Part shown: positions 37,172-58,789 of the stretch, in pieces
Layout: each line of letters begins with the position of its first letter
Numbering within the stretch: position 1 is the first letter of the stretch
Source of the DNA: Porpolomopsis calyptriformis
Taxonomy: Eukaryota > Basidiomycota > Agaricomycetes > Agaricales > Hygrophoraceae
Reading direction: 5' to 3'
Length of the DNA stretch: 64,000 bases
Assembly: GCA_951640195.1 (NCBI GenBank)
Contig: OX621163.1
Span: 3,968,001 to 4,032,000 of the forward strand
Notes under the pieces: model-generated
Database searches by the model: none
Told to the model about the DNA's origin: nothing
What the model saw: only the letters and a program-made list of their open reading frames with translations
Position numbers and translations under genes: made by a program

Positions 37172-39660
37172 CAATATGACATTGTGATCCACCAAGCTTG
37201 GGTAGCAGATATTGGTTCATTCTTCCCTCAGAATTTTTAGCATGCCCTTTGGCAGTCTATTGTTAATTGTGCAGTACTTGAATACCAGCTGTCAATGGAA
37301 CATTTGCTTCACCCTCCCACATCTTCTCACCCTTCATAGGGTACTAGCTCAGTAGGTAATTCTATATGGCCCTTTCAGGGGTAGGGGTGGGGCTCCTTTT
37401 GGGGCAAGATATCAGGTCCTACAGGCCACATCAGCTGCTTTATCTGTGGTGGTACTTCCCATGTGGGCTGTCATTGTCAATCCTCTGATAATGGCTTCCT
37501 GTCTGTCCAGGATGGCCTCTGGAAATCAGCTACAGGTGTCACAGTTTGCTTTGGATTCAATGGCAGTTATGGGTGCTCAAAAGAACCTTGCCCACATTTT
37601 CATGTGTGCTTGAGGTGTGGGTCTGCCAAACATTCTGTGCAATCCCACTCACCACAGTGAATATTTCCCCATCATCACTCCCTTGCTCCCTGATCATTGG
37701 GAGATAATTCTCCATCACTTCAAGCTTCTTAATAAATTTGCTAATATTCCCTTGGGTCTGTGTTATGGCTTCCATCTGGGTATCTCCTCCTGCATTACTT
37801 CTGTCTACTCACCTCCAAATCATAAGTCTGCCCTGGAAAATGCAGGGATTGTGGACCTGCATATTGAGAAAGAGTTTACTGCTAGCTGTTATTCAAAAGG
37901 TTACCTGCCAACAGAGTTCGTTAGACTGTTTGGCATATACTATACCTCTCCTCTAGGTGTCACATTCTCGGGCACCCCACTTAAACCACATGTCATACAA
38001 GATTATTCATTTCCCTGTCAGAACCCCTTGATATCATCCATCAACTCTGAAATTGACTCTTCAACCTTTTCATTTAACTAGAATACTTTCATTGACTGCT
38101 ACTTGGCAGTTATTTCCGCACCACCAGGGACACAAGTGGTAGTGTATGACATAGATGCTGCCCACTGCTGTATGCCTGTAATGCCAGAGGATTGATTGCA
38201 TGTCTATATTAACTGGAAGGGCTTGATCTGTATAGACTATTGCTGCTTATTTGGATGCTCTAGCTCTTGCGGGATATTTGGGAGCCCTGCAGATCCAATC
38301 CATTGTATCTGCATCCTAGCTAGTGTGTCATTAATCATTAAGTGGGCAGATAACTTCACTTTCTAGCATTTCCCTTCATCTGGAAGTGACCCTTACCTGT
38401 ATCCATATGATGAGAAACTAATCATGGAAGTGGCTGAGTTTCTAGGCTGCCCTTGGTCAGCCACTAAATGCACTCCATTCAAGACAATATTCTCATATTT
38501 GGGATTTATCTGGGACCTAGGAGTAAAAACAGTCTCACTTCCTAATTCCAAATGGGTCAAGTTCCTTGTGAAACTGGTACCTTAGATGTTTGGATCCTCC
38601 ATATCACATGCACAAGCACAATCTCTGGTCAGGTCACTAAACCACTGCAGCCTGATTATCCTCAGTAGTTGCACATATCTACCTTCTTTGTATTGGTTTC
38701 TAGCTGCGTTCCCTGAGGACAAGCCATTTGTTTTGTATCACATTCCTGCCAGTGTAGTGGAAGATATTCTGTAGTGGATTGAGGCTCTTCATCACAACTG
38801 GGTTAGGATTTCCTTATCCAGACTAGGAACTATATCTAGCTCACAAATCTATATAGATACCTCAACCTCTTGGGGTATTAGTCTCATCATGGATAGTACC
38901 TGGTTAGTGTGGCCTCTATTACTAGGCTAGAAGTCAGAAGGGTGCGATATAGGCTAGGTAGAATTCATAGCCCTGGAGCTATATCTTCTTACATTGGTCA
39001 AAGCAAACCTACAGGATATGACCTTTATCATCCACTTGGATAATGCAGGAGTGGTAGGTTCATTCAAAGTAGGCTCATCTCATAGTATAGAACAGAACCT
39101 AGTTGTTAGATGGCAGTCTAGGGTTAATCATAAGGTTTTACTTCAGGCTCTGGGTGTAGGGTTTTAGAGGGTTGGCTAACTACTGATTGGGGGTGTTAAC
39201 AAAAGAAACAGACTTATCCTAAGTCTATCTACTGCTAGCTTTATATACTAGCTAAGTATGAGTCATACTGACTATGTGTGAGTCGTAACGACTATGGATG
39301 AGTCATATAGATAAGGAGAGTGATGGTAGACTAAATATAGATATGGCTTGGTCACCTTCTATTACTAAGTGGAGCTTGGGTGGCTAAGCGGTTATTGATG
39401 TAAACTGTCTGATGTAAATAGGAATAGACGAGTAAAGGAAAAAGAAAAAATATATCTCTGACACTAGTGCTTCAATGTATTATCCTTCTCACACACAAGC
39501 ATAGGATCCATGTTGTGCCCAAGTGGATTGCATCTCAGGATAATCTGGCAGATGCACCTTCCTGTGGTGTATTCCCTTCATCCCCCCTTATACCTCACCC
39601 ACCTATAGTCCCGTATGTCCTGTCTATGTTTGTTGGTCCTTGTTATCAACCTGTAAATAA
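37172..39660 (+). pseudogene. DIRS/Ngaro-like retroelement, reverse transcriptase part
   Basis: A Cys-rich Gag end (CFGFNGSYGCSKEPCPHFHV, CLRCGSAKHSVQSH) is followed by a reverse transcriptase unlike that of gypsy elements: PPGTQVVVYDIDAAHC, LICIDYCCLFGCSSSCGIFG, IIKWADNFTF, PFKTIFSYLGFIWDLGVKTV, then RNase H-like YIDTSTSWGISLIMDSTWLV and IIHLDNAGVVGSF. This pattern fits tyrosine-recombinase retroelements seen in mushrooms. The second Asp of the active-site WADD is Asn, and stops are frequent. A solo LTR (39104-39463) splits the end; VVPKWIASQDNLADA follows it. No recombinase domain was seen downstream. Confidence 0.72.
39104..39463 (+). repeat. Solo LTR of family E
   Basis: 360 bp closely matching the LTRs of element E, here alone, with perfect 5-bp duplication CTAGT at 39099-39103 and 39464-39468. 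A solo LTR arises by recombination between the two LTRs of a full element. It interrupts the RNase H region of the DIRS-like element. Confidence 0.93.
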
Positions 39661-40380
39661 ATAATAACTGTATATTCTCCTCCTATTGTAAAGTAAGCTA
39701 AATGAAGTCAGACTATCAAACCAAATTATTGCTGAGTCTAGACTAGGCTTGTCCTAAGTGGGACTAAACCAAACTAGAATATTATTTTACAACTATATTT
39801 TACAACTATATGATACAACATAATGTGGCAATATGTTGCATTATATAGTTATAAATATAACACTATGTAGCACTATGTAGCACTATGTATAGTCCTTCAT
39901 AACTATATGAATGAAATATGTGTATAATTTCATATTAACATCTGTATAATGCTAAAATATATATATTAGAGTGGCAGAATTTAGCATAAGGTGTAATATT
40001 ACAAGATGTATACCATTATGTAGCATTTTATAAATATACAGATGTGCAAACCTGTGTACAGATGTGCAAACTTGTGCACAGATATGAAAACTTGTGCACA
40101 GATATGAAAACTTGTGTGCAAATATGTATAATTATGCTAAGTTATGTGTAATTATGCTAAGTTGTGCATAATTATACAAAATTGTGTGCAGAAATATTAA
40201 TTTATGTAAAATTATGTATAGATGTGTAAATTTATGTGCAGATATATAAATATCTATGCATGACTATGCACAAGGATCTAAGAGGATAAACATGATTTTT
40301 GTCCAGTATGGTCCTTCATAGTTACAGTAGTGGTGAAGAGATTGATGTAAATGACAACTAGCCTGTTCATATGTAAATAT
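39661..40380. repeat. AT-rich stretch with degenerate 20-bp tandem repeats
   Basis: No gene is visible. From about 40,030 to 40,250 imperfect units of about 20 bp follow each other, such as CAGATATGAAAACTTGTGCA repeated in varied form. Near 39870 TAGCACTATG recurs three times. Confidence 0.6.
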
Positions 40381-40441
40381 TCACTCTTGGGTTCGAACCC
40401 AAGACATAGCACTATCTACTTTCGGCCTTATCTCCGGAGAC

Positions 40442-40527
40442 GGCCGACTGCTAGTAAGTGTGTGGGTTCGATAACTAAAGGCTATCGTGGACAAGTCCTT
40501 TCGCTCATGAAAGGCAGGCAGTCGGCC
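40442..40527 (+). ncRNA. Degenerate hammerhead-like hairpin
   Basis: GGCCGACTGC (40442-40451) pairs perfectly with GCAGTCGGCC (40518-40527). Inside are GTCCTTTCGC and a GAAA in positions that align with the intact hammerhead at 40739-40797, but the CTGATGA core reads GTGGACAAG, so cleavage is not expected. It seems to be a decayed relative, or an unrelated stem. Confidence 0.35.
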
Positions 40528-40738
40528 ATCATGGTCCAATGTGAATGTAGAGGAAGTAGGGCGCACTTCACCATTCAGTCTGCACCCCCCTTGACTACCC
40601 ACCTGTTCGGGGTCAAAGACCTCTACCTTCCGTTCATGGTCGGTTTGAGTGGACCGTTCATGGTTGTTGGGTCATTCATGACCTGATGCTGGACTCCCCC
40701 TCAGCAATCTAAGTTGGGTACACAGTATAGCCATAAGG

Positions 40739-40797
40739 GCTGGTATGGGCAAGCGGTTAAGCCCACTGATGAGCCCCTTCGCACGGGTGAAACCAGC
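40739..40797 (+). ncRNA. Type III hammerhead self-cleaving ribozyme
   Basis: All conserved parts are present and correctly spaced: stem III GCTGGT (40739-40744) with ACCAGC (40792-40797); cleavage position A40745; stem I TGGGC (40746-40750) with GCCCA (40761-40765) around loop AAGCGGTTAA; core CTGATGA (40766-40772); stem II GCCC (40773-40776) with GGGT (40785-40788) around an 8-nt loop; and GAAA (40789-40792), of which the last A pairs with U40744. Cleavage would be expected after A40745. Such ribozymes in eukaryotes mostly belong to retroelements that make circular or multimeric RNAs. No protein gene overlaps it. Activity has not been tested. Confidence 0.88.
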
Positions 40798-40985
40798 TAG
40801 TCCCGCCACTATGCCAATTAACCAATAAAACAAAGTCTTACCTAGCATGCAAGTCATGAGGGTGCCAATGGCATCATCTCATTGAAGGTATCACATCCTC
40901 AACGCCATTAACAACCTGTAAATCAGTGGAATGAAACTAAAATTTAATATCAACTCATCGAAATTTCGTATCTGGTGTGCCGCAC
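40798..40985. other. No recognisable feature
   Basis: Contains CCAATAAAACAAAG about 20 nt after the ribozyme, which could be a polyadenylation signal. The - strand VVNGVEDVIPSM near 40,900 could belong to the RasGEF piece but cannot be assigned. Confidence 0.3.
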
Positions 40986-40989
40986 CTTC

Positions 40990-41270
40990 AAGCCAACTTA
41001 TGATACCTGTTGAAGTTAAGGAGCTTTTTGCTGGGAGTCGTAGGAGACGTTCTATAAGAAGGGTTGCCCTCACGACAGAAGGTGAGATCTGTCAGGTAAC
41101 GTCCTTTGCGCCAATAACCTCAGTCAAGAAATTAGTTAAGGGAGCTAGCAACGTACCCAAGAATGGGACGGCAGGAGGAGCAGTATTACGAAGTTTGGAG
41201 CAATACTCATGATAGATATGCCAATGGGCTGCAAGTCTTCTCAAAGAGGTTAGCTGTATCTTGTTTTCTA
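40990..41270 (-). pseudogene. RasGEF catalytic-domain fragment
   Basis: The - strand translation shows LRRLAAHWHIYHEYCSKLRN, TAPPAVPFLG, a probable intron (GTACGT...GCAAAG), then RYLTDLTFCREGNPS and KKLLNFNRYHKLA. These are hallmarks of the C-terminal half of the CDC25-type RasGEF domain, which loads GTP on Ras. A stop follows directly after HKLA where the family normally continues, and the N-terminal domain is absent. It abuts the broken end of the fatty-acid synthase, so it is a gene fragment, not a full gene. Confidence 0.78.
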
Positions 41271-41390
41271 GGGAAGACCCTGTCCGACAACATCAATAAT
41301 GCCAAAAAGGTTTCAGGAAGGCTGTGATGAGATCAGCTCTATTCAAGTCCGCCGTCAGTCTCGGAAGCTTGAGCATCATAGAAAGCGCAC

Positions 41391-44300
41391 CATGGTCGGT
41401 ACCGACACCTATTGCTGTGCCAGTTTCAGTGAGGACGTGTGATATTTCCGAGATCGCCTTTGTGTTGGCGGTATCCATCTCTATGGTTGTCGTCATTTTC
41501 TCGGGGAACACGTAGCTACCGGTCTTCGGGTTGAGAGTCGCTCTCGCCATGGAGTTCAACAAAACGCGGCGTTCCAAGTCAACGCTGTACGGGGGAACCT
41601 CCTTGATCTTCACAAGCGAATTTGAAGTCATCATCTCGCTCATCGCCCGGTACGATTGAAGGGCGCGAATACGATTTCTAGCTTTGTAAGACTCGTATGC
41701 GGAAGGTTCGAGTACACCAAACAAATATCGGGGGTGAACAACCAAAGCCGTGCCGCCAACTTGACCAAATCCAAAGGAGGACTAGGAACACGAGGGTGAG
41801 ATGGTTTTCGGATAAGCTAAGAGTTTCATACCATCACTCCTGCGCGAATACCGTCGGTGTGAATAGATTTCGAAGGGAACATTAGGAAGCGATGAGCTTG
41901 GAAGTGAGCGTCGACGTTGCTGTGCATAGTCAGAAAGGTGTATTTAAGTACATGATCGGATCCTACTCACTCGCTATTGCGGTTTCCAGGAATAATGCCG
42001 GAGCTAACGGTTTGCAAGAGACCCATCAATTGCCATGATGCTGATCCTCCTTTCGAGTGTCCCAGTAAACTCTTCTGCGCCATGATGGGGATGGCATTAC
42101 CAGGGGTACGAGTAATGGAGGTGAAAATATCGTTCCAGATGTGTGTCTCGTTTTCTTCCTGTAGCTTCTGTGAGTCTCTCGATTCATCGGAAAGAGGATA
42201 AACTCACATTAGCACCGGTGCTGGTTCCATGGATCGACAGAACGACAATGTCATCAGCGGTTAAGCCCCAAACAGCAAGCGCACGACGCAGCGGTGCTAC
42301 TCGTGGGTCGGATCCTTCAAGCATGCCGTACATAGCTAACACATCTTCCTCTTGGCGGTCGGCTTCCTTCTCGATATCGGCCACCCGTGAAGAGAAGTAT
42401 TCGTCGTCGACAGGCTCTCCTCGGCTCTTACATGCTTCGAGCTCCTCACGAAGTTGTGAGTGCTCGTGTGAAAGCCATTGAGAGATTTGAGTGCGTCTAA
42501 ACGTGATTTGACGAGAACGGTAGGCTACGTCGAGGAGCGGTAGGGGGTGTTTCGATGCTACCTCCCTAGCAATTGTCAGTACCCCACAACCAGGGGCTGG
42601 AATAGACCGTCCTGCTTTATCACTGAATAGTGGTGTCAGTCTCTATACCAGTGCGAATCAGCTTATACCTACGTCGAGGTGGAAGTGAATGCAATGACGC
42701 CACGAATCGGAGCTTCAAGTGCCAGGGCAGTTTTGGCAGTCATGACAATGTGTATCCCAGTTCCTTGTGCCTCCATGAACTGAGCGGTTTGAACGCATGA
42801 ATATCAGAAGAACAGATATGGTCAAATTTGTCTTACCCCTGCACGAGTTGTTGTTGCTGGACGGGACATCTCCGTAGGCTCCCGACCCATCGCAAACTCT
42901 GTTTCTGCACTGCTTGTCGCCTTCATGTTGGCGAACTCGTAAGAGCCCTCTTCGCAAATGTCGTCAAAGCCACCAGCGATCATGACTTTAGCTTTTCCGG
43001 ACAGGAGGGTATCGCATGCGATCTCAAGGGGCTGTAGTGCCGTTGCGCTGCGAGAGGGATCACGTCAGCGGGAAATTACACGGAGAGGAAACACGAACCA
43101 GGCTCCCACGGGGACTTTAACAGGGCCACTCGAGGACATTAATAACAAGTTCACCCAGCCAGCCGTGGTATTAATGAAACTAAAATGGGACGCTGAGAAA
43201 TGGGATGACCGTACTGGAAAAAGGACTCACGTCTCTTGAAGGATGTCATTCTGCACTTCCTTCTCTTCTCGGCGATCCTTGAACATCTTTCCCAGACTCT
43301 CAGTTCCACCCATGCCACTTCCAAGGCAAGTCCCGACCTCCGAGGGATGCATGTGCTTGTATAGTTCGTATGGGTCTGTGATGCGGGACATATTGAGAGC
43401 CTCCGCTGTGCAGACAAGAGCCCACAGGGTAGCTCGATCCGTTTGAGCAATGATATCATCAGGAATGCCGTATCGACCAGCGTGCCAACCTGTCGGGACT
43501 TGACCAGCCACTGTACGGCTGAACTTGAAAGCTTTTGGGACGAAGATGCATGCACCCTTCTTGAATTTCACAAACCACTGGCCGCTTTCACCAGCCCAGA
43601 TATCGCACTTGTCACCATGTTGGTATTTGAAGTTTTCGGCCTCGGCTTCCGCGACTTCAATGGGTTCCAAGTCATGGATTAGCTCAACCTCCTGGTTGAA
43701 GATTTTCTTTTTGGGGTTGTAACCTCGGAAAAGGTCAGGTTCTAGGATGCAAGCGTAAGCTTTTGAAGGGGGAATCAGCATACTTTACTCACCGATGAGG
43801 CGGACTCCGGCATGACTTAGGATTTCTTTTTCGTAGCGTCCTCTGACATCCTTATCATCCACTGGCTCGTTGGTTTTGCTGTCAACCCAGCCGACATACA
43901 AAGACCCATCCTTTAGGCGACCGTCGAAGTGTTTTATGTAGCCCATCATCCACGCCATTTCAATACACCCTTCGATGGTGAATTCACCTCTTGCTTCCAT
44001 CTCCCATCGTGTTCTGGAGCTACCCCAAGGACCGACTTCAGCGAAGCCCGTGACAACGATGACTCTGTCCAGATCAATCATACCCCGTAGCTGGGATACA
44101 TCTTTCAGTGAGTCGACCGACTCCAAAGCGGGGAAATCGAATCGGAAATTCGCCAGGGGGACCACGTTTACGGTCTGCAAAAGTCTTTCCGCCTCAACGC
44201 CATTGACAACCTGAAAATCGGCGGAACTATCTCTCGCGATAGCACGGCGAAGTTCGCTCTTCTTATTGAGGTTGATACGGATGCGGGTTGTGATATCTGC

Positions 44301-47247
44301 AAGGTGCGGAAGCCGAGCCATTCCACCGTTGAGGTCTGCCCAAATCGGCTCCACTTGAGTAATGCTGAATAGCAGCGGATGCATAAGACCCAGAATATTG
44401 AACGCCATTTCTTTCGCCGAGAAGGTGCGAACGCCATAACTTTCCAACTCATGTGCGACAATATTGGCGGGGCTCATCAAGCCCGTACCACGGGTCCATC
44501 TAATGGGAGCAAATTTAGATAGATGATGACAAAAGCGTCGACATTCACTCACCCAATGACAGCACCCGCCAGGCAGAGGTACTCACCCCAACTTTCCGAG
44601 CTCCAGCGATTAAACAGCGTCTCGAGAGAAATTTTTGACTCGGAGTAGAGACCATCATTCCCAAAAAGACCATGGTTGGGCGAAAGCGGTAATATGACTT
44701 GGGTAGGCCGTGTGACGAAATCTCGACTGGCTTTCTTGTTTTTGACAGCGCCGAGAATTCGAAGGAGGTTGACCAACATGATACGATGGGCAAGTTCAGA
44801 CTTGTCGTCGACACCATCAATCTCTCGTCCATTTTCAGGAACAGCGGCGAATGGGAGAATATAGTCGAGATCGAGCCCTAACGTAGCATAGATGTAGTCA
44901 ACTAGAGCTTCGACGTCTTGCTTAGAACCCTGATTGAATGGGACGACAATCAAAGCGGAACCGCGACTTCCAAAGCTCTGGAAGATCGATTGGTAATACT
45001 CGACAGTGGCGCGACTGTAACGGGATGTGGTGACCACAACATGTGCACCGCCAGAGAGCAGCCCTTTCAAAATCTCGACACCGATAGAACCCTTGCCGAC
45101 GCCAGTTAACAGAGCATTCTTGTCCTTGAATGTCGTACCTGAGGTAGCAATTTCGTGGAGGATATCCAAGTAGACACTCGTCAGGTTGCTGCTATATTCC
45201 CAATTAGTGCCGACTCTGCGTTTCAAGTGCAACAAGGGAATCTTGTCGGCCGATACGAATGAAACGCTTGTAATTTGAGGGCGAAGGAATTGAGATGATG
45301 ATCTCCGGCTTCGGGTTCCAACGCGGCTACGAGGATCAGGTCCTTTACGTAGAGAACGAACCACCCCTTCATAAAGCGCCTTGATGCGATTCTTCTGCTC
45401 TTGGCTAATTCCAGGTTGCGATTTTACAACCGTCCAGAGTTTAAGAACATCGTCCTGAACCTTTTGGATATTTACGGCTCCCGAGACAGTGTCACCACTC
45501 GCCATTTCTTCTACGTACGCTTCAAGCTTGCGGACATTCTCGCGAACGACTTCCGAGTACACAATATCGCCCTTTTCCGTGACTTCGGTACGAGGCGCGG
45601 TGGGAAGGGTAACTTCAGGGACCAGTTAGAAGAGAAAAGTAGACAATATCTAAGCGCGACTAACCATCCTTGTAAACCGGTGGCCTTCCGATGACCTCTT
45701 TAGTGTTATCGAGGAGTTGTTGCCCGAATTCTTTGGCCAACTTGTAGTTTTCGCCTCGAGTAACGTCACATTGGTCAATGTTGTATTGCATATAGACAAG
45801 GAAGTCCGGATCGGCACGATTGAGGAGAGAAATGGCACGCGCAGTAATATCGCGATCTACGGTGGCGAGTCGTCCGAAAATAACGTTGTAATACATAAGC
45901 AGAGCATCTTGTCGAGCCCAGTTCCAGGAAGAATCAAAGCGCCGTGCCTTGAGTGGATCAAAGATTGGCTGGATACCATCGATATAGGTGTCGCCGTGCT
46001 CCTTCGCGATGCTGTCTAACCGGGCTTGAAGAGCGATCGAATGTGCCTTTTCTTTATCAAATGCAATTTCACCCGAGCGTGAGTCGCGTTTGAGGTAGCG
46101 CATATAGAGTTCGACGTGCTGGGCTGCAAACCGTTCCTGCTCTGCCTGGAATTTCAAAAACTCCTCACTATTTATCACGGCTCCTCCAGCTGCCCCAGCT
46201 GCTCCACCTCCCGAACTGCCTGGAGACAGAGAAATCCCGGACCTCTTAGCATATATCGCCACGATGCCGTCCAGCCAGGTCTTGGCTTCAGCTTCTGAAC
46301 CAAGCCGCTTCGCAGGTTCTAGGGTGGTTCCAAGCAACAAAATGCCGTCTGACCGCGAAGGTCCCAGACCCCAACTCTTGGCAAGGTAAGACTTGATGGC
46401 AGAAGAATTAAACCCGCCAGGCATCTTACCACCAATCATACGAGAGACCAACGCGTTGGAATGTTTTCCAAGGGTGCCGGAAAATCCCATCCCCAATGCG
46501 GACGCCAGTTCTTCGAGCGGCATTTCTTTGGCTTTCTCAGGGGCAGACGCAAATTCCAACTGTAGGTCGCCTAGTATCTCGTTTTGTAGTGTGGACTTCC
46601 CGCCTACAAGGTCTTTGATGCTCTTTGAAAGGGTACTTCATCTACTTTTTTTTGAGCTTTTGGGCAATGACAACGGTCAAGATCTCAATGGATTTCAGAG
46701 GAACATCCTCCACCATGGTGACGGAAGCAGATGGAGCGGAAATCGACGCAATTGTAACCGGAGCGGTACTGGGAGCCGGGGGTGCAGTTTGAGGAGCTTC
46801 TTCGACTACTACAACGGCTTCAGGCTCATCTTCGAATTGGTAGTATATTTCCTTCCCGTTCTGTGCATGACAAAGAATCGACCGAGAGCGGCCGGTGGAA
46901 TCATCTCGGGCCTCGTATTTGGCCTTGAGTGTACGTTTAGCCATGCCGGTCAACGTTGGAGAAGGGCCAAGCTCGATGAACCTTTCGAACGCGAAATCTG
47001 CGAACAACAGGTCCTGTGTCTCGATCCATCGAACAGGGGAAGCAAATTGGTATGCGAGGAGTTCCACAAGAATGATATACGCCAACTTTTGACGTTGCGC
47101 TGGGTCAGCCCAGCCGTCCTCGTCCCACCTCCCCAAAACTTTGTCAAGGCGTGGAGACGATGTTTGGTCGTAGGTTAGCTGGGCATACTCGCGAGAGACT
47201 TCGAATGGCTTAGCGATAAGGTTAGGGATATACTTTCCGACGAGCAC
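41391..47247 (-). other. Domain map: alpha-type half of the fatty-acid synthase
   Basis: The start of yeast Fas2 is recognisable (ELLAYQFASPVRWIETQDLL, ELGPSPTLTGMAKRTLKAKY). The ACP has DLVGGKSTLQNEILGDL, with the Ser that takes phosphopantetheine, but two small indels just before it (AAAAAAAA run and CCCTTT) break the frame near 46,640-46,620. Ketoreductase: LLTGVGKGSIGVEILKG and GLYSESKISLETLFNRW (44,550-45,560) intact. Ketosynthase: PVGAC with the catalytic Cys codon split by a 50-nt intron (43098-43049), HGTSTGAN and LLGHSKGG with both His. The C-terminal transferase ends at IGVGTD, keeping one metal ligand but losing the RNFT and KEAVFKSLG parts. Confidence 0.85.
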
Positions 47248-50200
47248 GTCGGGATTCAGGTGATCGGCCTTGAGCTTTTTTGAAAGATCTGCAATATGGA
47301 TATTAGTTATCAGAATTCAGGTAGCGGTTGAGTTATCCTACAAGCTCGGAATGGCATGACCCCAGCCCAAAGATAGCGGGAATGGAAAGGTACATCAATA
47401 CCAGGGAGGGGGATTGTTGCAAAACCACGTTCGAGCTTTATATGGCCTTCGACTTTTTGCTGTTCTTTAGCTCGTTCGAAACAACTCTTGACGATCTCTC
47501 CCAGCATCTCTTTGACCCTCTCAACAGTGTATGTTTCAGTGAGCTGCATAAACTTTGTTAGCCACATTTAGTTTAACACTTGAATTAATTTCACCTTGGC
47601 AATGTCAATTTTTTGGACTTTCAAATAATTGAGGACATTCGTCATCGTTTCAAGTGCCACGAGCTCCCCAGCACAAACGTATTGTTGACCCTGCAAGATT
47701 ACCGAAAGATCAACACCAGTTAAAGGTACACCAAACGCAACACACCTCGACATTGTAATTGACGATTTCAAGGAGACAGCTAGTTGATAGAGCGATGCTG
47801 TCAACTACCTCACGCAGGGCTGCATCGCCGAATGTCTTCGAGATTCGACTCGGGTTGACGGCACACATGGCGTAATTAGACCGGTTTTCGGAGTCTCGCT
47901 CCACAGCACGCTGCATTGTGATTCCACGGTAGAAGACAACGTCAACAAGAGACAAAATGGGAAGGACGTCTGTGATCGAGGCCAGTGCGGAATACTCGCC
48001 CAAAGAGTGTCCGGCAAAAGCACAGTCCTTCTGCACGAGACCCTTCATCCGAAGGTCCTCGAATGCGGCCTTCTCGGTAACGACGAGAGCGATCTGTGCA
48101 AATTGGGTAGCAAAGAGCAGTCCATTCGGATGACTAAATGTATATTTGGGAGTGCGAACGTCGATATCGGCGAAGAGGGGGAGAGTCTTGACGTTACCGT
48201 CCTTGTCCATTGTGTCGTATGTCATATCGATGTATCGTTGGCGAATGGCTTGACCTTTGATTCCACCAAAGTGAATAGTTTTCTCCTTCGGGTTGTCTTT
48301 GACTATCTCCACGATAGAGAATCCATACACATTGCGGAGATGAGCATCGGCACTCTCCCACACTGCGCGGGCGGCAGGGGAACTATTGTAAAGATCCATA
48401 CCCATACCTGGTTCTTGAGATCCTTGGCCGGTGAATACAGACGGTGGTGGGCTGTGCAACCTCCGCTGAGCCTTCAAGAACCTTCTCGCCACGACTATTT
48501 CCTGTCTCGATTTGGACGACGATGTGACCATCCCGCATAGCAACATGTTTGATACTGACGGTCAATTCGTCACCGGGCAGGACCATCCCCACAAACGTAA
48601 CATTATAGCTTTGAGAAACAAAATCCGTCAATAATTCCGTCTCAGTGATAAGTACCACGCACGCAAGGACCCGTTCGGAGTGACCTTCCGCAACAACATT
48701 CTCGACGTGGCAACGTGTTGCAGCACTAGTCCACAAACCATGTGTGATGGTGCCGGGGAGAGACGCATAGTCAGAGAAGTACGGGTTCACGTGGATGGGG
48801 TTGAAATCACCCGAGACGTCAGAGTGTGGTTCGTTAGTAAGGGGGGCACTGAATACGGCTTTGGCGGGGCTGGTCAGTGAGTAACCGCCGTTCGCCAAGG
48901 GCACCGCAAGCCCTTGAGGGCTGCCGTGACGTTGCAAGTACGCGAGGACGGGGTTACCTTTACAATCGTCCTGTTGGAAGTCCACAGATCCGACCTTGAC
49001 CAAGCGTCTCAGAAGGTCTCTAACGAAGACGCTGCCAGAGACCGAGACATCGCAGTATGAGGTCTTGTCCTTGAATGAAACTTGCCACTCGATACGGAAA
49101 ATAAGCCATGTGCCAGCCAGGAGTGGTCTAGATTCATCATCCCATTTGAACCATTCCTTCGACTGCAGCACCCCAACGGCAGCGTCGTTTGCAAGCTCAA
49201 CTAGATAGTCGGGTTCCTCCGTTGTCTCAAATGTATTCTGGTAGTCGGAGAAGCGACCACGATAAAGAAATGCCGATACTACCTCGATAACTGGTTTGTC
49301 GCCACGACGAACATAACCTTTCACCTTGACTATCTTGCCCTCGTTCGCATTTGTGACCGAGACGATTCGAGCTTCCGCCTTGCAGACATCCCCAACTTGA
49401 AGTGGTTTCGCACCATCGACCATGCGGAAGCCGTTGGAAAGGTGGACAAGTTTAAGGAGATCTCCATCAATTGCAAATGGGAATATCGACTTTATGATTG
49501 CCTGTGGACCACCGTCAAAGTACCATAAATATTTATGAATATGAGACTTGCCTGCCATCCAGTCACGATTGCGAAGTCCATAGGCGCCTGAACCTTCGTG
49601 TTCCTAACGGTGTTGAAGGCCTCGCCTTGATTGCCAACAACACCACAAAATCTTGCTACGTCAGTGACATCAATTGTGACTTCGGGGCCAACGAATACAT
49701 CGTGGATGTCAAGGTTAGGGAGGACAGCTTCATCGCCAAACCAAAGCTTCCAGTAAAATTCCTTGATCCGAGTGTTGCGGCCCTCCGCGATTTCATGAAT
49801 TGGAACTGAGCCCATGGAAGGCTTATACACAAATCGTAAGTGGAGAGGAACTGAGACTCCCTGACGTTCTTCGAAAACCGTAATATTGATCAGCTTTGAT
49901 TGGGCGTCATATTGAATTTCTACTGCTTTGAAGGCCGGCGTTTGAACGTTATTCGACCGGGCGGCACCATAGACGGTGACGGAAACAGGGGATGAATCCA
50001 ACAAGGTAACGACAACTCTTTGTCCAGAACGAGGAGCAAGGAGTCGATGAATGGGGTTACTGACATACGATGAACCTTGCACAATGGTCGGTGAGCAGAA
50101 AAGAGCCCGCAACCATCCGATTTGGGGGCCAGCTAACGTCTCTAACCACAGGGACTGCTCAGGTGCCGCAGTACCCATCACTTGGAAGTTTCGGCCTCTG

Positions 50201-53192
50201 TCTCCACTCGCTGGATGTTGAACGGCACCAGGAAGTCCGGAGAAGCAGCCTTGGGTTTTACAGCCAGGTAGTCGACAGAGGGGATTTTGGATTCGTCGCC
50301 GCCATAACGGTGCTCTACAAGCTTCTGGATGAGAGATGAATTGACGCTATCAAGTAGATCCTTGATGGCTGGATCCTTGACTTTAGAATGTTTCACAGCC
50401 ACCGGTCCTTGCAAGATGCAAACTCGTTGAGGGTCTTGATCAAAAACGCCTTCGATATCCTCAGCTGCCCACAAAGAGTCCTGTCGGAAGGTCACACCTA
50501 ATTAGAACAATCTGTCGATAATTCTGGTTGGGTCACATACCTTCTTAAACCATACTTCGAAATTGGCATCCAGCACGGGAATGAAGGGTACGGGTTTTTG
50601 TCCAAGTCTCTGAGAGATGGCCAAGAAATATGCCTTATCTTCTGAGGCCAAAGGTTGCTCCCTGGCTAACGGATATGCTCTGAAGAACAAATCGACGAAC
50701 GGTAGGGGGTCGTCGAGCGTTGCAAAGCTCTGCAAAAGTGATGGTTTGTCGCCACCGCCATTCACGCCTGCAAAACGTTCCTCTACTCTCCTCAACCAGT
50801 CACCCGTCAAATTCCTCAAGGACGTATCCACCCATCGGTTCTCGTGCTTCACGAACATGAGTCTCACCATCCTCAATACCACCTCTTCATATGTCATAGC
50901 ACCAAGATCGGTTGCAACGCTATCGTCCTTCTTCCATCCAAACCATGGCTTGCTGAAGTCTTTGTTTAATTTCTCTATAACTTCCGCTCTACGCTCTGTT
51001 AGCCATGCCATGCGTTTTTCCTTTGGTAGGCTGAATACGGTGTCGTCGAACTCTTTCCACAACTTGACGCCCCGTGTCGCAATCTTATGAATCGGCTCTC
51101 CGAGCTCGGACCGCACAGTGAAATCCCCCCCGTCGGCTTCACGTATGTACCTTCCCAGCCCCTGTCCTCCACACCAGGGGCCGCAACGATCAAGTCTTTC
51201 ACTGACGAGCTTGTGTGCGCTTCTTTCGCAACCATGACACGGCTTGCGAATAGAAAGCCGTCGAAGGGCATGGGCTGGACGTCGTACGAGACAGACTAGT
51301 CCCCGGTTAGGTATGGCCACACATCATCAGCGGCACCAAAACCAGATCCGGCTACAAGGGAGATATTTTTTTGCTGGCAAATGAAGCGATACGTTGCAAG
51401 AATAGGTTGATGAAAGTCCTCGAATGAATGGTGCCCATCGGCCCGCCCGCCAGTCCATTGTAAAATGATGGGGAAGTCGGGATTTGAAGCAGCAATGTTG
51501 ACAACCTGTCGAATGCCATCGGTACTACCAGGCTTGAATGCGACGTGCTTAATCCCAGCGTTCCTCAGCCCCTCAATAATCTCGGCAGCTTTCTCCGTAG
51601 TCGGAATGCCGGCGGCAACGCAAAACCCTTCTATAGGCAGCCCTTCTTGCCGTAACTGTTGCCATAGAGGGAGCTGGAAACCGAACTGACGAGGGTTGAT
51701 GTAAAGGGAGTTGAGTGTGATGCCAATCCCGGCGGGGATCTTCGTCTGTATTTCGGAAACTTTGGCACGCAATGCAGCAGCGCTGTAGTGCCCTCCGCCA
51801 GCAAGTTCAACATGGTATCCAGCCTCAAGAACAGCACTGACGAAACCAGCTTTTACAGTGGTGGGGGTCATACCGGCAACCATGATCGGCGGTTTGCCCA
51901 AGAGACGAGAAAACGGGGTATCGAGATGTATCACACCATCGCTATTGATGGATTAGAGAATAACGGAAGATATCGGTATCATTAAACGAACCTTGTCCGC
52001 ACCAAGCCCGGCGCCCATTGCTCACTCCATCGATCCTCGAACTTGACGCATTGCGTATCGTAGAGCTCAACATCACCCTTGCCTTTATCCCCAACAACAA
52101 TAACCCGAACTCCTCGTCCATCTAGATTGCGCGCAGTGAGAGGTCCGATCCCGCTCAAGCCGCCAGGACCAAAATCAATCGCATGGGTCGCTGCCTTCGG
52201 GAAGTTGGTCGCAACTGACCAGTGAATGGGTAACGTAAATATTTGATCGCAGAGTAAACGCGTGATCGACCCTGAAAACAGTCGCAAATCTGAACCTGTG
52301 CAACCGGCTCGTCATTATGTCGAAGGTGAAAGAGACGACAAAACGCACCATCCTCGGTGTGAAAAACTGGTATCTGCAGGTCCTCGGGCTTCCAGAGATC
52401 CTCTCCCCCGAGATCCTCTACACAGAGCTTTTCTCCCGCGCCGGCAAGATATGTGCTGTGATACGGGACGCCAACAACTAAGAAACGAATGGAAAATACA
52501 GACTTGCGTTGTGAAAATGGCGTTTTGCTCTGATCGATCCCGTTGGGTGCACGAACATTCCTCAAATTCGTTACAAGTCCACACAACGAGCGCGTTGGTC
52601 CAGTGATAACAAATGCGCGTGGCCCATTATGCAAAGATACTGTCAACTTGGCGTTTTCGGGGAGGTGGGAGTTCGTCTTCTTCACGTGTGGCTCCAAGTC
52701 CTTTAACGAGAGGCCAGTCACAGAAAGCATAGGGCTCGGCACGCCCTCTCCACCCTCAACTGTGTCCTGGACAATACTCGGCTCTAGAGACGTTACGGGA
52801 AATGCTTGTTGTCCACGCAAACCAGAGAAAAACAGCCACCGAATCGCTTTACGAGCATTGTCCATGAAGGACTCGAAAGAGCTAGATGCGGCGATGGCTA
52901 CGGCTGATACTAGGCGTTGCGAATGACCAGTCGCGCCAGCAATACGATCACGGAGTTCACCTGGAGTGAGACCAGAGACACGGCAGACAACCAGGTACTG
53001 GGCAAGTTGTGTGAGGCCAATGAGAGGTGAAGAAATAGGGATAGATGCGAGATAGATGGTAGAAGGGCGAGGAATGGTTTTAGAGAGCCAAGCGACGACC
53101 TCCATGCCATGAGGGTAGAAGAGTGTATCTTGACGAGCAACTGCGAGGGGTTGGAGAACCTCGTTGACCATGGATGTAAGGAAAGAGGTCAC
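46950..53192 (-). other. Domain map: beta-type half of the fatty-acid synthase
   Basis: Acyltransferase: LASIPISSPLIGLTQL and the nucleophile region GATGHSQRLVSA, with Arg for the usual Gly after GHSQ (52,940-53,000). Enoyl reductase: PPIMVAGMTPTTVKAGF, QWTGGRADGHHSFEDFHQP (51,300-51,960), broken by the TAG stop and the frameshift at TGGI/TVRSE. Dehydratase: MDFAIVTGWQA, GDLLKLVHLSNGF, VSGDFNPIHVNPYFSDYA with the catalytic His (48,780-49,560). Malonyl/palmitoyl transferase: [16 protein letters not shown] (48,430) and [14 protein letters not shown] (48,000) with its Ser. The dehydratase-transferase link has lost two bases, so the GQGSQ part is out of frame. No stop codon separates it from the alpha-type half, hence a fused gene. 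Confidence 0.85.
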
Positions 53193-53195
53193 AAA

Positions 53196-53213
53196 CGTGC
53201 TATATATAGCACG
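53196..53213. promoter_or_regulatory. 18-bp perfect palindrome at the MFE-2 / synthase junction
   Basis: CGTGCTATATATAGCACG is its own reverse complement. It lies at the junction between the dehydratase piece of MFE-2 and the truncated synthase. It contains a TATA-like core and could act as a promoter, but the synthase frame appears to run through it, so it may simply mark the breakpoint. Confidence 0.35.
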
Positions 53214-53224
53214 ACTAACCCGAC

Positions 53225-54122
53225 TTTGCGTTTTTACTGAGCGTGACAGCCGCCGCTTTGCCTTTATCGAGAACTTCCATTAATCCGACACTGGCCCATT
53301 CACGTCTCGTACTTCACGAGTCAAGACTAACCGAACCTCGTTCACCAACTCGCCGCTGGTGGGAATACTGCCTCTCATAGCCAAGTACTGTTCTCCATGG
53401 AGTAATTTCGCCTGAAGCAGAGTCGGTGTCGGAAGCAAGGTATTAGCAGTTGACTAACTGGGTTGAAGTTGGGGAGCCAGCCCAACGGGATGCCAGCGCT
53501 GGCAAGGAACTGAGGGATAACTCCAAAAGTGGGAAGGGCACTGGATTCATCGTGTCCCTCATACGTCCATTGGAGTTCCTTTGCTGCCGCACCAATTCCT
53601 ATGTCATACAGGATTACATCTCGCTCGGTGTAGTTGGATCGATGTGGACCCCTTTAGCGTCCCTGACAAGTTGCGAATCTTCTTGATTCCGTATTTGACG
53701 CCTTCTCGCGCCACGGTTTTGGTGAATCCGATGAGACCTCATAAATGTTTGCGAGTGAGTCCGTCACAAAAAACGATGACGATAACACCGGGGTTATAAT
53801 AAATTACGCCCAGACGAGTTTCATTGAGAAAAACTCACCCCTTGTCTTGTAAACTACTGGCATTGTTGATCAGGATGGTCACCGCGCCGAACGCATCAAG
53901 TGCAGACTGTATAACAGCACCCCCGTCTGTCACCGAGGACGTATTTGCGACCGCCTTGCTGCCGGCTGTAGAATGGAATTAACTTGTCGGATATTGCAGG
54001 ACATGGATTGACAAACACTTGATGACCTCGTCAACAACTTTCTGGGCAGCGGCAGCACTGACGTCGCTAACGACGACATTCGCGCCGCGAGAAGCGAAGA
54101 GCTCTGAATAACTGGTTGAAGT
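53225..54122 (-). pseudogene. Peroxisomal multifunctional enzyme 2 (FOX2/MFE-2) remnant
   Basis: From the right: SYSELFASRGANVVVSDVSA and DAFGAVTILINNAS, parts of a short-chain dehydrogenase with the NNA motif; then GLIGFTKTVAREGVKYGIKK from the later helix; then the hydratase part YTERDVILYDIGIGAAAKEL, LPTFGVIPQFLASAGIP, and GSIPTSGELVNEV and EVLDKGKAAAVT. This enzyme carries out the second and third steps of peroxisomal beta-oxidation. The Rossmann start, most of the dehydrogenase and the second dehydrogenase domain are lost, and a stop follows YGIKKIRNL. Identity of the pieces is clear; together they cannot be functional. Confidence 0.8.
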
Positions 54123-54233
54123 GAGTGGTGGTGAGTGCGCGGGCAAAACGACTTATACAGTATATGGATCGGTTCATGTTGAAGGAAAGCCTCGCGTACT
54201 CTGCCTGTTTTGCTCGTGTTCGTCACCATTATA

Positions 54234-55262
54234 ATGGCTCCCAAATCATTTCTATCCACTGTCCGTTCTGTATTCTCAAAGTTTTTCGTAGCGAACAATC
54301 CAATGTCCACCGACCACTTGCTCTTGCCTGGGGAGGATCAGTCACTCCCCGTCTCGGTGCTCAGCCAATTTGTAAAGAGCAAGGAAAACCTCGACTTGGC
54401 TAACTCAGCTTTCGTCCGCCAGGCGACTCACTTCAAGCAGTCTTCTACTGTCTTCCACGAATCAGTCCTCCTCGACATTGACATCGTCGACATTGATGGA
54501 TCACCCATCGCTAAGACTTTTTTTCACGCTGAACGAGCAGGAGGAGACGGCCCAGTCGGAAACTGCTCACCCTCCAGCTCATCCACCTCGCTTGCTTCCT
54601 TGTCCGAAAATACCATAAAAGCAAAGGATACACTCTTACTTCCTGGCTCAAAAGCCCGGGATAAATATTCATTCGATGACTACCTAGCTAAAGATCACAT
54701 ACGACTCAGGACCATCCGACTGTCCAAGGCGATGTCGGTTGCGCAACTGATGGTTATGCTGATGGTCCTGCATGACCACTGGCCCCATTACGTTCTCTTC
54801 ACCTCCCAGTGTTATTTGTTTGCAGGGGCAGTTTGTGAGATGTTGCGGATCGAGTTTGGTGGCTACGTTGTTGATGATGGGAATAATGTGAAGGCAGGAA
54901 GGTTCAAGTCTGTGCAGGTCACAGAATCACCTCCCGATGTTACGGAGGTCCTTGAAAAGTACCGCGCGGAGTGGGAAAGGTTTTGTAAGAAGACCCTCGA
55001 GGCAGAGGGACGGGTGGAGCAGCAGCACCAGGAAGAGTTGGCAAGACGTGAGCGGCAGCTCCAGGAAGAGGTAGCGAGACGCGAGGAGGCGGAGCGGCAG
55101 CATGAGGAAGCGGTAGCAAGACGCGAGGAGCAGCACAAGGAAGAGGTAGCGAGACGCGAGGAGGCGGAGCGGCAGCATGAGGAAGCGGTAGCAAGACGCG
55201 AGGAGCAGCACAAGGAAGAGTTGGCATATCTGAAGGGGCTGCTCCAACAACAAAGTCAGTAA
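54234..55262 (+). CDS. Coiled-coil protein of unknown function
   Basis: Open frame of about 342 residues from ATG 54234 (MAPKSFLSTVRSVFSKFF); an earlier ATG at 54210 adds eight residues. The middle has KDHIRLRTIRLSKAMSVAQL, YVLFTSQCYLFAGAVCEMLR, a pattern I have seen in uncharacterised mushroom proteins near transposons. The C-terminal 100 residues form a Glu/Arg-rich coiled coil, containing a 25-residue unit (from EEVARREEAERQHEEAV) repeated exactly twice as a 75-bp duplication. No signal peptide or membrane segment is evident. It is the only open + strand gene in the gene-fragment area; a continued exon after 55262 (intron GTTTGT?) is possible. Function unknown. Confidence 0.6.
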   Translation: MAPKSFLSTVRSVFSKFFVANNPMSTDHLLLPGEDQSLPVSVLSQFVKSKENLDLANSAFVRQATHFKQSSTVFHESVLLDIDIVDIDGSPIAKTFFHAERAGGDGPVGNCSPSSSSTSLASLSENTIKAKDTLLLPGSKARDKYSFDDYLAKDHIRLRTIRLSKAMSVAQLMVMLMVLHDHWPHYVLFTSQCYLFAGAVCEMLRIEFGGYVVDDGNNVKAGRFKSVQVTESPPDVTEVLEKYRAEWERFCKKTLEAEGRVEQQHQEELARRERQLQEEVARREEAERQHEEAVARREEQHKEEVARREEAERQHEEAVARREEQHKEELAYLKGLLQQQSQ

Positions 55263-55329
55263 CACTTTTTTAATATTCTTAATATTGTATCCAATTTTTT
55301 ATTGCAGGTTTGTCTCAAGCAGGGTAATA

Positions 55330-56850
55330 TCCACAGTTCCTTTGAGCGTTGCCATCTCCCCCTCGACAAGTATCTCAATCTTCTGTGTAAGGTCGCCCTT
55401 GGCTACAGCGGTGGTGACATGGGCAATCGAGCGAACTTGATCGGTTAAACTTGAGCACATTCGATTGACCTTTTATAAGAATGAGATAAGGCAACCGTAC
55501 ATCCACATAAAAACTCAAAAATAGACACTTACATTCCTGACAAGCTCGAACCAAACACCTTCCACGTCTGGAACATGCGCTTGCCCCCCGAGCTTCCCTT
55601 GACTGCCTACTTCCAGTGTCACCCTCGTCACTTCCGCCGCCAACGCACGGAGTCGCACGACCATACCGTTCACGGTGTTCTTCAAATCTAAGATCTCGCC
55701 GCGTCCACTTCGATCTGCTTGGACAAGTCTCCTAGTGCGACTGCCTTGGTGACTTTTGCAATCGACCGGACTTGACTAGTGAGATTAGCGGCAAGGTTGT
55801 TGACTACGCCTGTGAGTTCTCGCCAGGTTCCTTCGACGTCGAGGACAAGAGCTTGTCCGCCGAGTTTACTAAATAGTAATTCTGCATGTTGCAGCCAACG
55901 AGGGGTGGTAAAAGATCACTTACCCTTCTGTGCCGACCTATTGACTGACTCGAGTAACCTCCTTAGCGAACTGTCCCAATTTATCGACCTATGTACAATA
56001 TAACGGTAGCGTACAATGGAATTATGATAGAGTAATTCGCACCATAGTATTGATAACGTCTTTGAGTTGGACCATGACAACGCCCTGTACTGGCACGGTT
56101 ATCTTCTGAGATAAGTCACCCCTAGCGACGGCGTTACAAACACGAGCGACATCTTGGACTTGTGCATTGAGCAACCGCAGCTCCTCGACGGCACTCATCC
56201 CGCTCTCGAACGCAACGGAAGACAAACCGACAGAAGGGTCGGTGTACACATGTCTCATGGTGGTGGCGTCGGTGGTGACCCTCCCGCAGGTCGGGCAGGT
56301 GGAGTGATGTCCATGGGAAAAGGCCGGCGCGGAGGCCGTTGTGGTGTAAAGGTATCGGGTGTGCTTGGTTGGGGCAAAGCCTGTGAGGTTTTCGAGGGAG
56401 GAATGTTCCGGGCGGCCATTTGGGGGTGGACAGGGGATGGTGGATGGATGGTCGTCATCTCGTGGTTCCATTTCGACGTCCTGTTCGGTGGTGCCATTAT
56501 TGTTGCTTGGATGGGACTCACCGTTGGCGATGATGTGATGATAGATAGAATGCGGTGAAAGCTCGTTGGTGAAGGAGGGTATATCACCCACACTTCGTCT
56601 CTTTTTTGTATCTGGTCCGTTCAATTGCCAGCTCTCGGACGCTTTAATGGAAGCAAGCGTGTCTTCTGCAGTGTACATCCGTCTCGCCATTGCACTGAGC
56701 GACCTGAGGATGATATCCATCTGTTTATCTGTGGGGCCATCGTATCTGGGGATTGGAGCCGCCGAAGGACCAAGCTCATAGATGGACAAGAGAGCGACAA
56801 GATACGGGATGGTGATTGATTGTCGACGATGTTGGTCATCGTCAACGACA
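55330..56850 (-). pseudogene. Group III (Nik1/Os-1 type) histidine kinase, N-terminal HAMP part
   Basis: The first exon encodes YELGPSAAPIPRYDGPTDKQ and a low-complexity part, then tandem HAMP repeats start: [75 protein letters not shown] arrays are the osmosensing and fungicide-target part of cytosolic hybrid kinases upstream of the HOG pathway. There are at least three introns. A TAG stop (VSQ-stop-VGTEG) and a frameshift at EVDA/GEIL break the frame, and the gene ends after the third repeat; the kinase and receiver domains are absent. Confidence 0.8.
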
Positions 56851-56913
56851 GCGAGGAGGAGGAGGGTAATAAGCTCAACACGTGCAGAACCGTTTCCTCA
56901 TCTTATCTCTCAC

Positions 56914-57113
56914 CATGTCTTCCAATTCCAAAACCTCTCCTCAATCAACGCACAAAATCCTACGAATTCTTCGGTCCTCCGGGCGCCCTTTTCGTCACCC
57001 TCTCCGTCCCCTTCACAACCTACTTCCTCTACTTTGCCTGCTCAGAGCATTCAGGCGGTTGCCCACCCCGCCTCCCACTCGAGACACTCAAACACAGCCG
57101 GCCTTGGCTCTGA
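56914..57113 (+). pseudogene. C-14 sterol reductase (ERG24-type), first-exon fragment
   Basis: ATG 56914 gives MSSNSK; after a one-base shift the frame continues LNQRTKSYEFFGPPGALFV, TLSVPFTTYFLYFACSEHSG and GCPPRLPLETLKH, the first membrane segment region of the ergosterol-pathway C-14 reductase. It stops at TGA 57111. It lies head-to-head with the Nik1 fragment and tail-to-tail with the TRAPPC11 fragment, so its ends are breakpoints. The rest of the gene is absent. Confidence 0.7.
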
Positions 57114-57740
57114 TTCTGCCCGTTTATCGGACTGTACTTTTTGAATAACTCGTATGACTTTGTGTACAGCTGCAGTTGACAACGAGGAAAAAAACAGGGG
57201 CAATTGTCTTTGAACCGGCTGCGCAATGAGTTGGCCAAGAGGATGATACGGACCTCCAAGATGATCGTTAGATGATCCACCTTCTTCTCGTTCACGAATC
57301 CGGGGGAGGTCTGCAGGGCCCGCACCATAATCAGATCAACCAGACATCGTCCGATATTTGCATGCTTACCTCCATCTTCAGAGCGGCCAGAAAACGTTCC
57401 CTTCTCAATTGTGTACCGAGCTGCCATGTGATAATAGTAACCAGGATGTTGCAATGCATGACTCGCATTTATCCCAGCGTTGGCTTGGATGGTCAAAGGT
57501 ACGGAAGAGCGTGAGGTGGAGGATAAGGATACAGGGGCGGGGAGATGAGATGGGATGGTGAGTGTGGATTGCGTGCCCTGCTCGAGATTCGGCAAAGACA
57601 CGGTATCTGGAGTATCGAAAATACTGTTTGAAACTTGAGGAGTGACGAGGAAAGGATGATACGCAACTGTCTTGCCATCCAGCTCCAAAACTCGTACGTC
57701 TCTTCACCAATCCCCCAACCACGCGAAAAGTCGGCAAAGC
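57090..57740 (-). pseudogene. TRAPPC11 (foie gras domain) internal fragment
   Basis: The - strand encodes FADFSRGWGIGEETYEFW, SWMARQ, intron, YRVFAE, then with a one-base shift LEQGTQSTLTIPSHLPAP, HALQHPGYYYHMAARYTIE, intron, SPGFVNEKKVDHLTIILE, intron, LYTKSYELFKKYSPINGQ. These steps match the foie gras region of TRAPP complex subunit 11, a vesicle-transport factor. The frame stops at the junction with sterol reductase sequence near 57090. The frameshift and missing ends mark it as a gene fragment. Confidence 0.72.
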
Positions 57741-58109
57741 GGGGGGCGTGAGTATTGTGATGCGAGAGCGCAAGCGTGTGCTCGTTATTTGGTCTGTCGG
57801 CCGTACGACCCAAAGGGCCGTCTCGGTCCTTCAGAGGGCGGGGACGGGGACGTGGGTGGTGACAGGTGGTGGTCAGGACGGGGTTGAGCGGAGAGGGGTC
57901 GTGGTGGGGTGAGGGCAAGGGCACACCCCAAGAACGGGCACGTCTGCCCATTCTGGGGGTGCTCCCTCCACCCCTCTTGTGTCGGCCGGGATTCGCGAGG
58001 GGATGGGGGACGGGGGCAAGGAGGAGGCGGCGGCGGCGGCGATGGTGGTGGTGGTGGTGAGGGTGTTTGCTGATGTAAGTGCCAATGGGCGCTCGGTCGT
58101 GGTGGGGGC

Positions 58110-58365
58110 TGCAAGGCCCCGAAAGAATGGGCCCTAGATGGTCCTCTCTGCTAGCTAATGCCTGCTTGTAGAGCGTCTCAGCCTCGTCGTGTCGTCCCTG
58201 TGAGTTGTAAACGCCCGCGAGGTTGTGCGTCGACGTAAGTGTGGATGGGTGGTCAGCGCCCGCTTGAAGAGGGCCTAAGCCTCGTCGTACCGTCCTTGTG
58301 AGTTGTAAGCGCCCGCTCGAAGAGGGCCCCAGCCTCATCGTATCGTCCCTGTGACGGATAAACAA
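58110..58365 (-). pseudogene. Kinesin-light-chain-type TPR fragment
   Basis: The - strand has HPSTLTSTHNLAGVYNSQGR followed by HDEAETLYKQALASREDHLG, a 42-residue TPR unit of the kind found in fungal NLR-type and kinesin-light-chain proteins. Neighbouring DNA repeats part of the unit (AGTTGTAAACGCCCGC and variants), but frames differ. No start or end of a gene is visible. Confidence 0.65.
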
Positions 58366-58789
58366 GCGCGAGGTTGTCCATCGACGTAAGCGCGGGGGGG
58401 TGGGGTGGTTGGCGCGTCGCCAACGTAAGCGTGGGTGGGTGGTCGGCGTCTCGTCAACGAGGGGGTGGGGATCAAGGGCGAGGCCCTAACGCCCACCCAT
58501 CTCGGTCGCCGGTCGGGGGTCGGGGGTCATTGGTGGTGGTGGAGATGGTGGTGGAGGCGTGATGGTGGTGATGGTGGTGGTGACAATGGTGGTGGTGGTG
58601 GTGGTGATGGTGGTGGTGGTGTAGGGACAAGCCGCGCGAAACGGGTGAGCCGTAATGCTCACCCGTCTCACACTCAGGAGACCCCCCCCCCCACCTCGTG
58701 TGGAGGTGAAGGGGTTGTGGGGGGTCGGGACGTGGTGGGGGGGCGAGGGGAGGTGGTAGAGGTGGTGGTGGTGCTCAGGTACCACGAGT
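58366..58789. repeat. GC-rich stretch with TGG microsatellite
   Basis: GGTGGTGGTGAT-type triplets run from about 58,500 to 58,625 and recur near 58,740. Long frames across it are composition artefacts. Confidence 0.75.

Follow-up and report, generated by a model that had tools for sequence, protein, structure and literature searches.

A type III hammerhead ribozyme motif in a repeated non-coding sequence beside a fungal fatty acid synthase gene

Does a short stretch of fungal nuclear DNA with the hallmarks of a hammerhead ribozyme hold a genuine one and, if so, which element carries it? Both questions are raised by positions 40739-40797 of the window, i.e., the whole 64-kb stretch of Porpolomopsis calyptriformis DNA analyzed here (C1:3968001-4032000 in the genome coordinates used). 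Our preferred answer, to which we give a probability of roughly 70%, is that an old, structured repeat of about 420-440 nt ends, on its 3′ side, in a genuine type III hammerhead and reached its 12 copies through duplication of a block with a fatty acid synthase (FAS) gene.

Positions 40739-40797 are a complete type III hammerhead, composed as follows:

40739-40797, plus strand: type III hammerhead ribozyme (from sequence, Rfam match, chance test, and pair swaps in two diverged loci)
40739-40744 with 40792-40797, plus strand: stem III, 6 pairs, U16.1-A15.1 included
40746-40750 with 40761-40765, plus strand: stem I, 5 pairs
40751-40760, plus strand: loop I, AAGCGGTTAA, D-arm/A-box-like
40766-40772, plus strand: core CTGATGA
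40773-40776 with 40785-40788, plus strand: stem II, 4 pairs
40777-40784, plus strand: loop II, CTTCGCAC
40789-40792, plus strand: GAAA

The type III class is defined by CUGANGA...GAAA, a UH at the cut site, and three helices of which stem III is open, and the window copy has all of these. Its cleavage triplet is GTA, with the predicted cut after A40745, and stem II is closed by a G-U pair instead of the usual G-C. The native fold (-18.9 kcal/mol) lies only 0.3 kcal/mol above the predicted minimum (-19.2 kcal/mol), and the 59-nt ribozyme is not unusually stable (z -0.62). Loops I and II may touch through GCGG/UCGC (40751..40784). Judged by its sequence, this copy should be able to cut itself.

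Rfam's type III model (RF00008) matches 40742-40794 with 25.6 bits and an E of 0.0039 when 601 bases are compared with 4227 families, and no Rfam match anywhere in the 64-kb window reaches a curated cut-off. Across the genome (33,544,692 bases on 17 contigs; 68 of 6333 candidates scored), the Hammerhead_3 search yields 13 matches at E ≤ 10 and zero at E ≤ 0.001. Twelve of the 13 score 28.3 bits (E 0.0087) over the full 54 positions and the last one 26.1 bits. The covariance-model check proposed by the sequence-only reading (an earlier interpretation of this DNA) thus gave a divided result: every genome-wide match at E ≤ 10 comes from the ribozyme family, but the best score of 28.3 bits stays under the RF00008 gathering score of 48.5 bits (Rfam 15), which is a database threshold and sets no structural requirement.

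A score below the cut-off would suit a chance product, or a tRNA-like or other RNA that merely resembles a hammerhead. We consider this highly improbable. A mechanical descriptor (the 7-base core, GAAA, UH, and at least 4 pairs in every stem) finds one match in the window and none in 120 first-order Markov windows that share its composition and dinucleotide make-up (15.36 million strand-bases), from which we conclude that the ribozyme is not a product of chance. The CTGATGA...GAAA pattern alone is at chance level, with 3 occurrences in the window versus 2.48 expected, so it is the stems that carry the signal. Together with the sequence itself and the Rfam match, this chance test bears out the earlier claim of a complete type III hammerhead, its coordinates and its cut site. 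Genome-wide, CTGATGA...GAAAC occurs 66 times versus 33 for the reversed control, and 12 of the 66 come from the ribozyme family. The remaining matches were considered as extra hammerheads and rejected: by eye, they include repeated short motifs with stem II unpaired.

Searching the genome with 40350-40830 (481 bases) retrieves 12 copies at about 100% identity, identical or nearly so, together with a fragment of 125 bases and, on C4, a relative at 67% identity; a search with this relative then uncovers a third locus on C11. The ribozyme pattern is found in exactly these 14 places (12 copies, C4, and C11) and nowhere with the reversed control. There are, in other words, three independent loci, one of them in 12 copies, and the search for further genome copies that had been advised was successful in both near-identical and diverged sequences. 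C4 and C11 fail the mechanical descriptor even when stems of 3 pairs are allowed, and the C4 copy goes unmatched by Rfam at E ≤ 5 in 801 bases as well as in the genome-wide search at E ≤ 10.

The three loci can be compared base by base. Window and C4 agree at every core base, and their ribozymes differ in H17, in one swapped stem I pair, in the loops, and in the closing pair of stem II. At H17, the cut-site base, the window has A and C4 has U, and either is allowed. For the stem I pair, the window has U-A where C4 has A-U and C11 has G-U; in stem III, one pair reads C-G in the window and C4 but U-A in C11. Stem II is closed by G-U, A-C, and G-C, respectively; G-U and A-C are unusual at this position and may slow cleavage. 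In C11, the core base G12 is replaced by A and stem I contains a U-C mismatch, so the C11 ribozyme is probably inactive. As a natural core mutant, C11 offers a control for a ribozyme that can be tested directly. The native fold of the C4 copy (-16.9 kcal/mol) lies 3.4 kcal/mol above the predicted minimum (-20.3 kcal/mol). The GCGG/UCGC match between the loops is kept in the window and C4 and lost in C11, and random loops reach a match of this type in 4.5% of cases; the earlier suggestion that the loops allow a tertiary contact is thus upheld in two of the three loci.

Aligned over the three loci, 95.7% of cells pair, compared with 19-49% when the partners are slid. Double-sided changes are seen in 2 of 16 pairs, a number that 121 of 500 shuffles also reach (range 85-160). 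Covariation thus supports selection without proving it, as there are three sequences and the shuffle control is not beaten. C4 (67% identity) and C11 have retained the ribozyme region, and much else of the repeat has drifted. The bases immediately flanking the ribozyme are conserved too (CTAAGTTGGGTA upstream, CTAGTCCC downstream), so that something besides the ribozyme is conserved on both sides, which is a point in favor of mere resemblance. On the other hand, the base swaps preserve pairing, and 15.4 million random strand-bases gave no match, both of which speak against it.

Which element, then, carries the genuine hammerhead that we favor? Its surroundings are made up of the following parts:

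39036-40320, strand unassigned: end of an unrelated repeat/retroelement that adjoins the FAS block and lies outside the ribozyme repeat (copy comparison)
40321-57789, strand unassigned: part of a large duplicated block with the FAS gene and the ribozyme repeat (copy comparison; truncated at 57789 here)
about 43-53 kb, minus strand: fungal type I fatty acid synthase gene (Pfam domains, PDB matches)

The sequence-only reading had rightly recognized a fungal setting with LTR elements, as fungal genes and Ty3-like retroelement pieces lie elsewhere in the window (16-28 kb). It had also made the ribozyme part of a transposon at the junction, which we reject. The retroelement ends at 40320, and all four partial copies fetched (two on C8, C9:504820, and C1:3596665) stop at that same base and continue into different sequence (8-14 of 40 bases alike). 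This fixed end, with other sequence beyond it, identifies the neighbor as a later insertion and not the carrier. Among the matches listed, 39036-40320 is complete at three places (the window, C9:100104, and C9:1951197) and partial elsewhere, and none of the four places with the partial copies fetched is a ribozyme hit; the ribozyme is not linked to the neighboring retroelement. Left of 40321, nine of the 12 copies share one different flank, and it is in the remaining three (the window, C9:100104, and C9:1951197) that the retroelement end lies there.

Some side observations concern this neighbor. A solo-LTR-like repeat of about 360 bp (39103-39463) recurs at 95-97% identity in at least 33 further places. 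At C9:1951197 the insert, a 1285-bp retroelement end, has a copy of the block stretch 40321-40474 on either side, a duplication of 154 bases that is far longer than usual target-site duplications (TSDs); in the fetched locus (L038) the duplicate stretches lie at 464-617 and from about 1895, in minus-strand reading. By eye, the sequence that adjoins the retroelement copies at C9:505340-505480 and C1:3596580-3596720 is the usual left flank of the block in reverse complement (TGTAACAGATATGTTACA...); judged from these two junctions, this flank is either a preferred target or a repeat in its own right.

To the right of 40321, the window and each of the 11 other copies share about 99.9% identity over the 6.1-9.4 kb fetched. 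Among the matches listed, several block copies extend up to 8.8 kb past 49000, and the seven others compared at 57789 continue alike where the window copy stops. The FAS gene within the block is recognized by its domains (acyl carrier, helical, acyl transferase, MaoC, and meander) and by PDB sequence matches to FAS alpha and beta. Block copies with the repeat are located on C1, C4, C7, C9, C13, and C15, and FAS without the repeat on C8 and C12. Seven of the 12 copies are no more than about 101 kb away from a contig end, including one on C15, a contig of only 112 kb. On C8 the FAS copy stops at 41326, and on C12 it stops at 41077, after an interruption of some 205 bases at 41325. Both copies end short of the repeat position and hence provide no empty site for it. 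Given the near-identity over kilobases around the repeat, we regard the 12 copies as products of block duplication. Taking them as proof of recent hopping was considered and rejected, as the flanks are common for kilobases on the right and, in nine of 12 copies, on the left too. No reverse transcriptase, such as a Penelope-like element or Terminon would carry around the ribozyme, was found in a Pfam scan of 20 of the 22 frames of at least 150 aa between 40.3 and 62 kb; other block copies reach further.

The block shows further features of its own. With at least 14 copies at 99-100% identity, the type I FAS region represents an unusual amplification of a large metabolic gene. A 0.4-kb stretch (40944-41324) matches C10:1193423-1193814 with 89% identity, which gives the impression that the FAS block has picked up part of a gene. 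The stretch 55333-57789 has at least five more matches (C6, C8, C9:1712037, C13:1542657, and C15:101297), none of which, among the matches listed, extends to 49000-55332, and may hence be a repeat of its own. Past the block cut, 57790-59200 is G-rich and minisatellite-like with a 147-bp tandem repeat.

Within the block, the limits of the carrier itself are set by the extent of its clear similarity to C4 and C11:

40386-40806, plus strand: non-coding repeat with the ribozyme as its 3′ end (similarity to C4 and C11)
40386-40403, plus strand: palindromic hairpin, T-arm-like, with an exact B box (corresponding position in all three loci)
40390-40400, plus strand: B box, GGTTCGANNCC
40409-40461, plus strand: structured hairpin, outer stem GCACU/AGUGU, inner stem CGGCC/GGCCG (same fold predicted for C4)

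The repeat measures 421 nt in the window and about 438 nt at C4 and is shortened at C11; similarity between window and C4 is strongest at its two ends. For the hairpin at 40409-40461, z is -3.7 in the window and -2.1 at C4, where the outer stem reads GUACU/AGUAC through one C-G to U-A change. The hairpin was not seen at C11, where the B box, the ribozyme, and some of the 3′ half are retained. About 55 bases separate the end of the C11 repeat from a start-like ATG (by eye) downstream, that of a PWP2-like gene whose next exon gave the PWP2 match. Rfam returned no result for the 5′ block of the repeat. Direct repeats flanking the element, another feature whose search had been proposed, offer no support: TSD candidates (CACT on either side of the window repeat, CCAC at C4 with shifted ends only, none at C11) do not exceed chance, as matches of at least 4 bases occur in 77% of random pairs. 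Overall, the repeat resembles a small non-autonomous element, SINE-like or retrozyme-like, whose spread has ceased and which would originally have been mobile.

The B box suggests that the repeat may be transcribed by Pol III. If so, it could be a SINE, i.e., a tRNA-related short element, with an RNA trimmed by its own hammerhead, as exemplified by the schistosome Sm-alpha repeat; we hold this to be possible but doubtful. An exact 5′ B box is present in all three loci, and no second one occurs within the 64-kb window. Moreover, stem-loop I is D-arm-like and in two loci resembles an A box (1 mismatch), and a TTTTT run lies downstream of the C11 element. However, neither the window nor C4 has a convincing A box before the B box; the A-box-like match comes 3′ of the latter, whereas a normal Pol III gene has the opposite order; and A-like sites with 1 mismatch abound (105 in the 64-kb window, both strands). 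ARAGORN predicts no tRNA in the window or at the three loci, and no T run directly follows the repeat in the window or C4. In a bolder version, which we deem quite improbable, stem-loop I would double as D-arm/A box and the T-arm hairpin would form the other end of the RNA, making it a tRNA-mimicking, self-trimming RNA gene or SINE of a previously undescribed class; its ribozyme end would meet the tRNA-like end in a folded or circular RNA.

The sequence-only reading had pictured an element that makes circular RNA. This comes close to a retrozyme, a non-autonomous retroelement whose self-cleaved RNA is ligated into a circle and spread by reverse transcription, a life cycle that requires two ribozymes per transcript or a circular template. 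The descriptor, run on both strands of the 12 fetched block copies (6.6-9.9 kb), finds one hammerhead in each, and the closest two of the 14 family places are 53 kb apart. With single hammerheads this far apart and TSDs at chance level, a circular-RNA cycle is unsupported, and we consider a retrozyme unlikely. Neither the pair of LTRs with a hammerhead each that marks plant-type retrozymes (12 fetched block copies) nor the tandem type I hammerheads of the metazoan type are seen; here, the ribozyme is type III and single. Still, the repeat is non-coding and similar in size to the plant LTRs of about 350 bp that contain type III hammerheads, and a solo LTR would appear single, just as many single Jatropha hammerheads are solo LTRs according to the relevant passages of PMC4918200.

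Very unlikely, in our estimation, is an endogenized viroid-like or mycoviral RNA with a hammerhead. Its size would fit, as fungal viroid-like circular RNAs of 157-450 nt have been described (PMC9875651). On the other hand, Rfam finds no minus-strand hammerhead around the repeat in the window or at C4, and three exact patterns have 0 matches in a viral contig collection, which need not hold such RNAs. A genome contig collection likewise gave 0 matches to the exact pattern, the contig collections being of viruses and prokaryotes.

We thus return to the reading that we prefer, a genuine hammerhead at the 3′ end of an old structured repeat. Under this reading, a plus-strand transcript starting near the T-arm-like/B-box hairpin would fold and cut itself after A40745, by which the downstream RNA would be removed and the transcript would acquire a fixed 3′ end. 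Hammerhead cleavage leaves a 2′,3′-cyclic phosphate and a 5′-OH. The 12 near-identical copies would have been made when the large FAS block around the repeat was duplicated.

Fungal hammerheads are already known, and the ribozyme type found here is not new. In the literature surveyed, as far as the sources' relevant sections go, fungal nuclear hammerheads are mainly database hits whose carriers are little described. In Pleurotus ostreatus, an Rfam 11 search gave five Hammerhead_3 matches, for which the section concerned describes no carrier element (PMC5040776). By description only, both cases share the type III model, a fungal nuclear genome, and several copies, whereas the family found here is under the Rfam 15 cut-off. 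The hammerheads of Yarrowia lipolytica are linked to interspersed repeats (PMC3088659, PMC4870747) and resemble ours in their fungal nuclear genome and several repeat-linked copies; going by the pertinent descriptions, type I was searched there (PMC4870747), as opposed to type III and block duplication here. Plant LTR retrozymes likewise place a type III hammerhead within a short, non-coding repeat, a few hundred bases in length, but here no LTR pair or second nearby ribozyme was found, and the passages on them in PMC4918200 make no mention of a T-arm/B-box hairpin. Metazoan non-LTR retrozymes are also short non-coding repeats with a hammerhead, but according to the part of PMC7229834 concerned these are type I, in tandem copies, and in animals, whereas ours is type III and single. 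Helenus TRIMs, found in fungi too, have LTRs with tRNA-like sequence and hence share a short repeat with a tRNA-like B box, but the relevant sections mention no hammerhead (PMC10886601), and no LTR pair was found here.

For a carrier with a second tRNA-like end, searches of the openly licensed literature on fungal hammerheads gave no counterpart. Three diverged loci in one nearly chromosome-scale genome define such a carrier, with the tRNA-like end conserved in addition to the ribozyme end. If our reading is true, the repeat would be either a fungal counterpart to the retrozymes of plants and animals or a self-trimming SINE.
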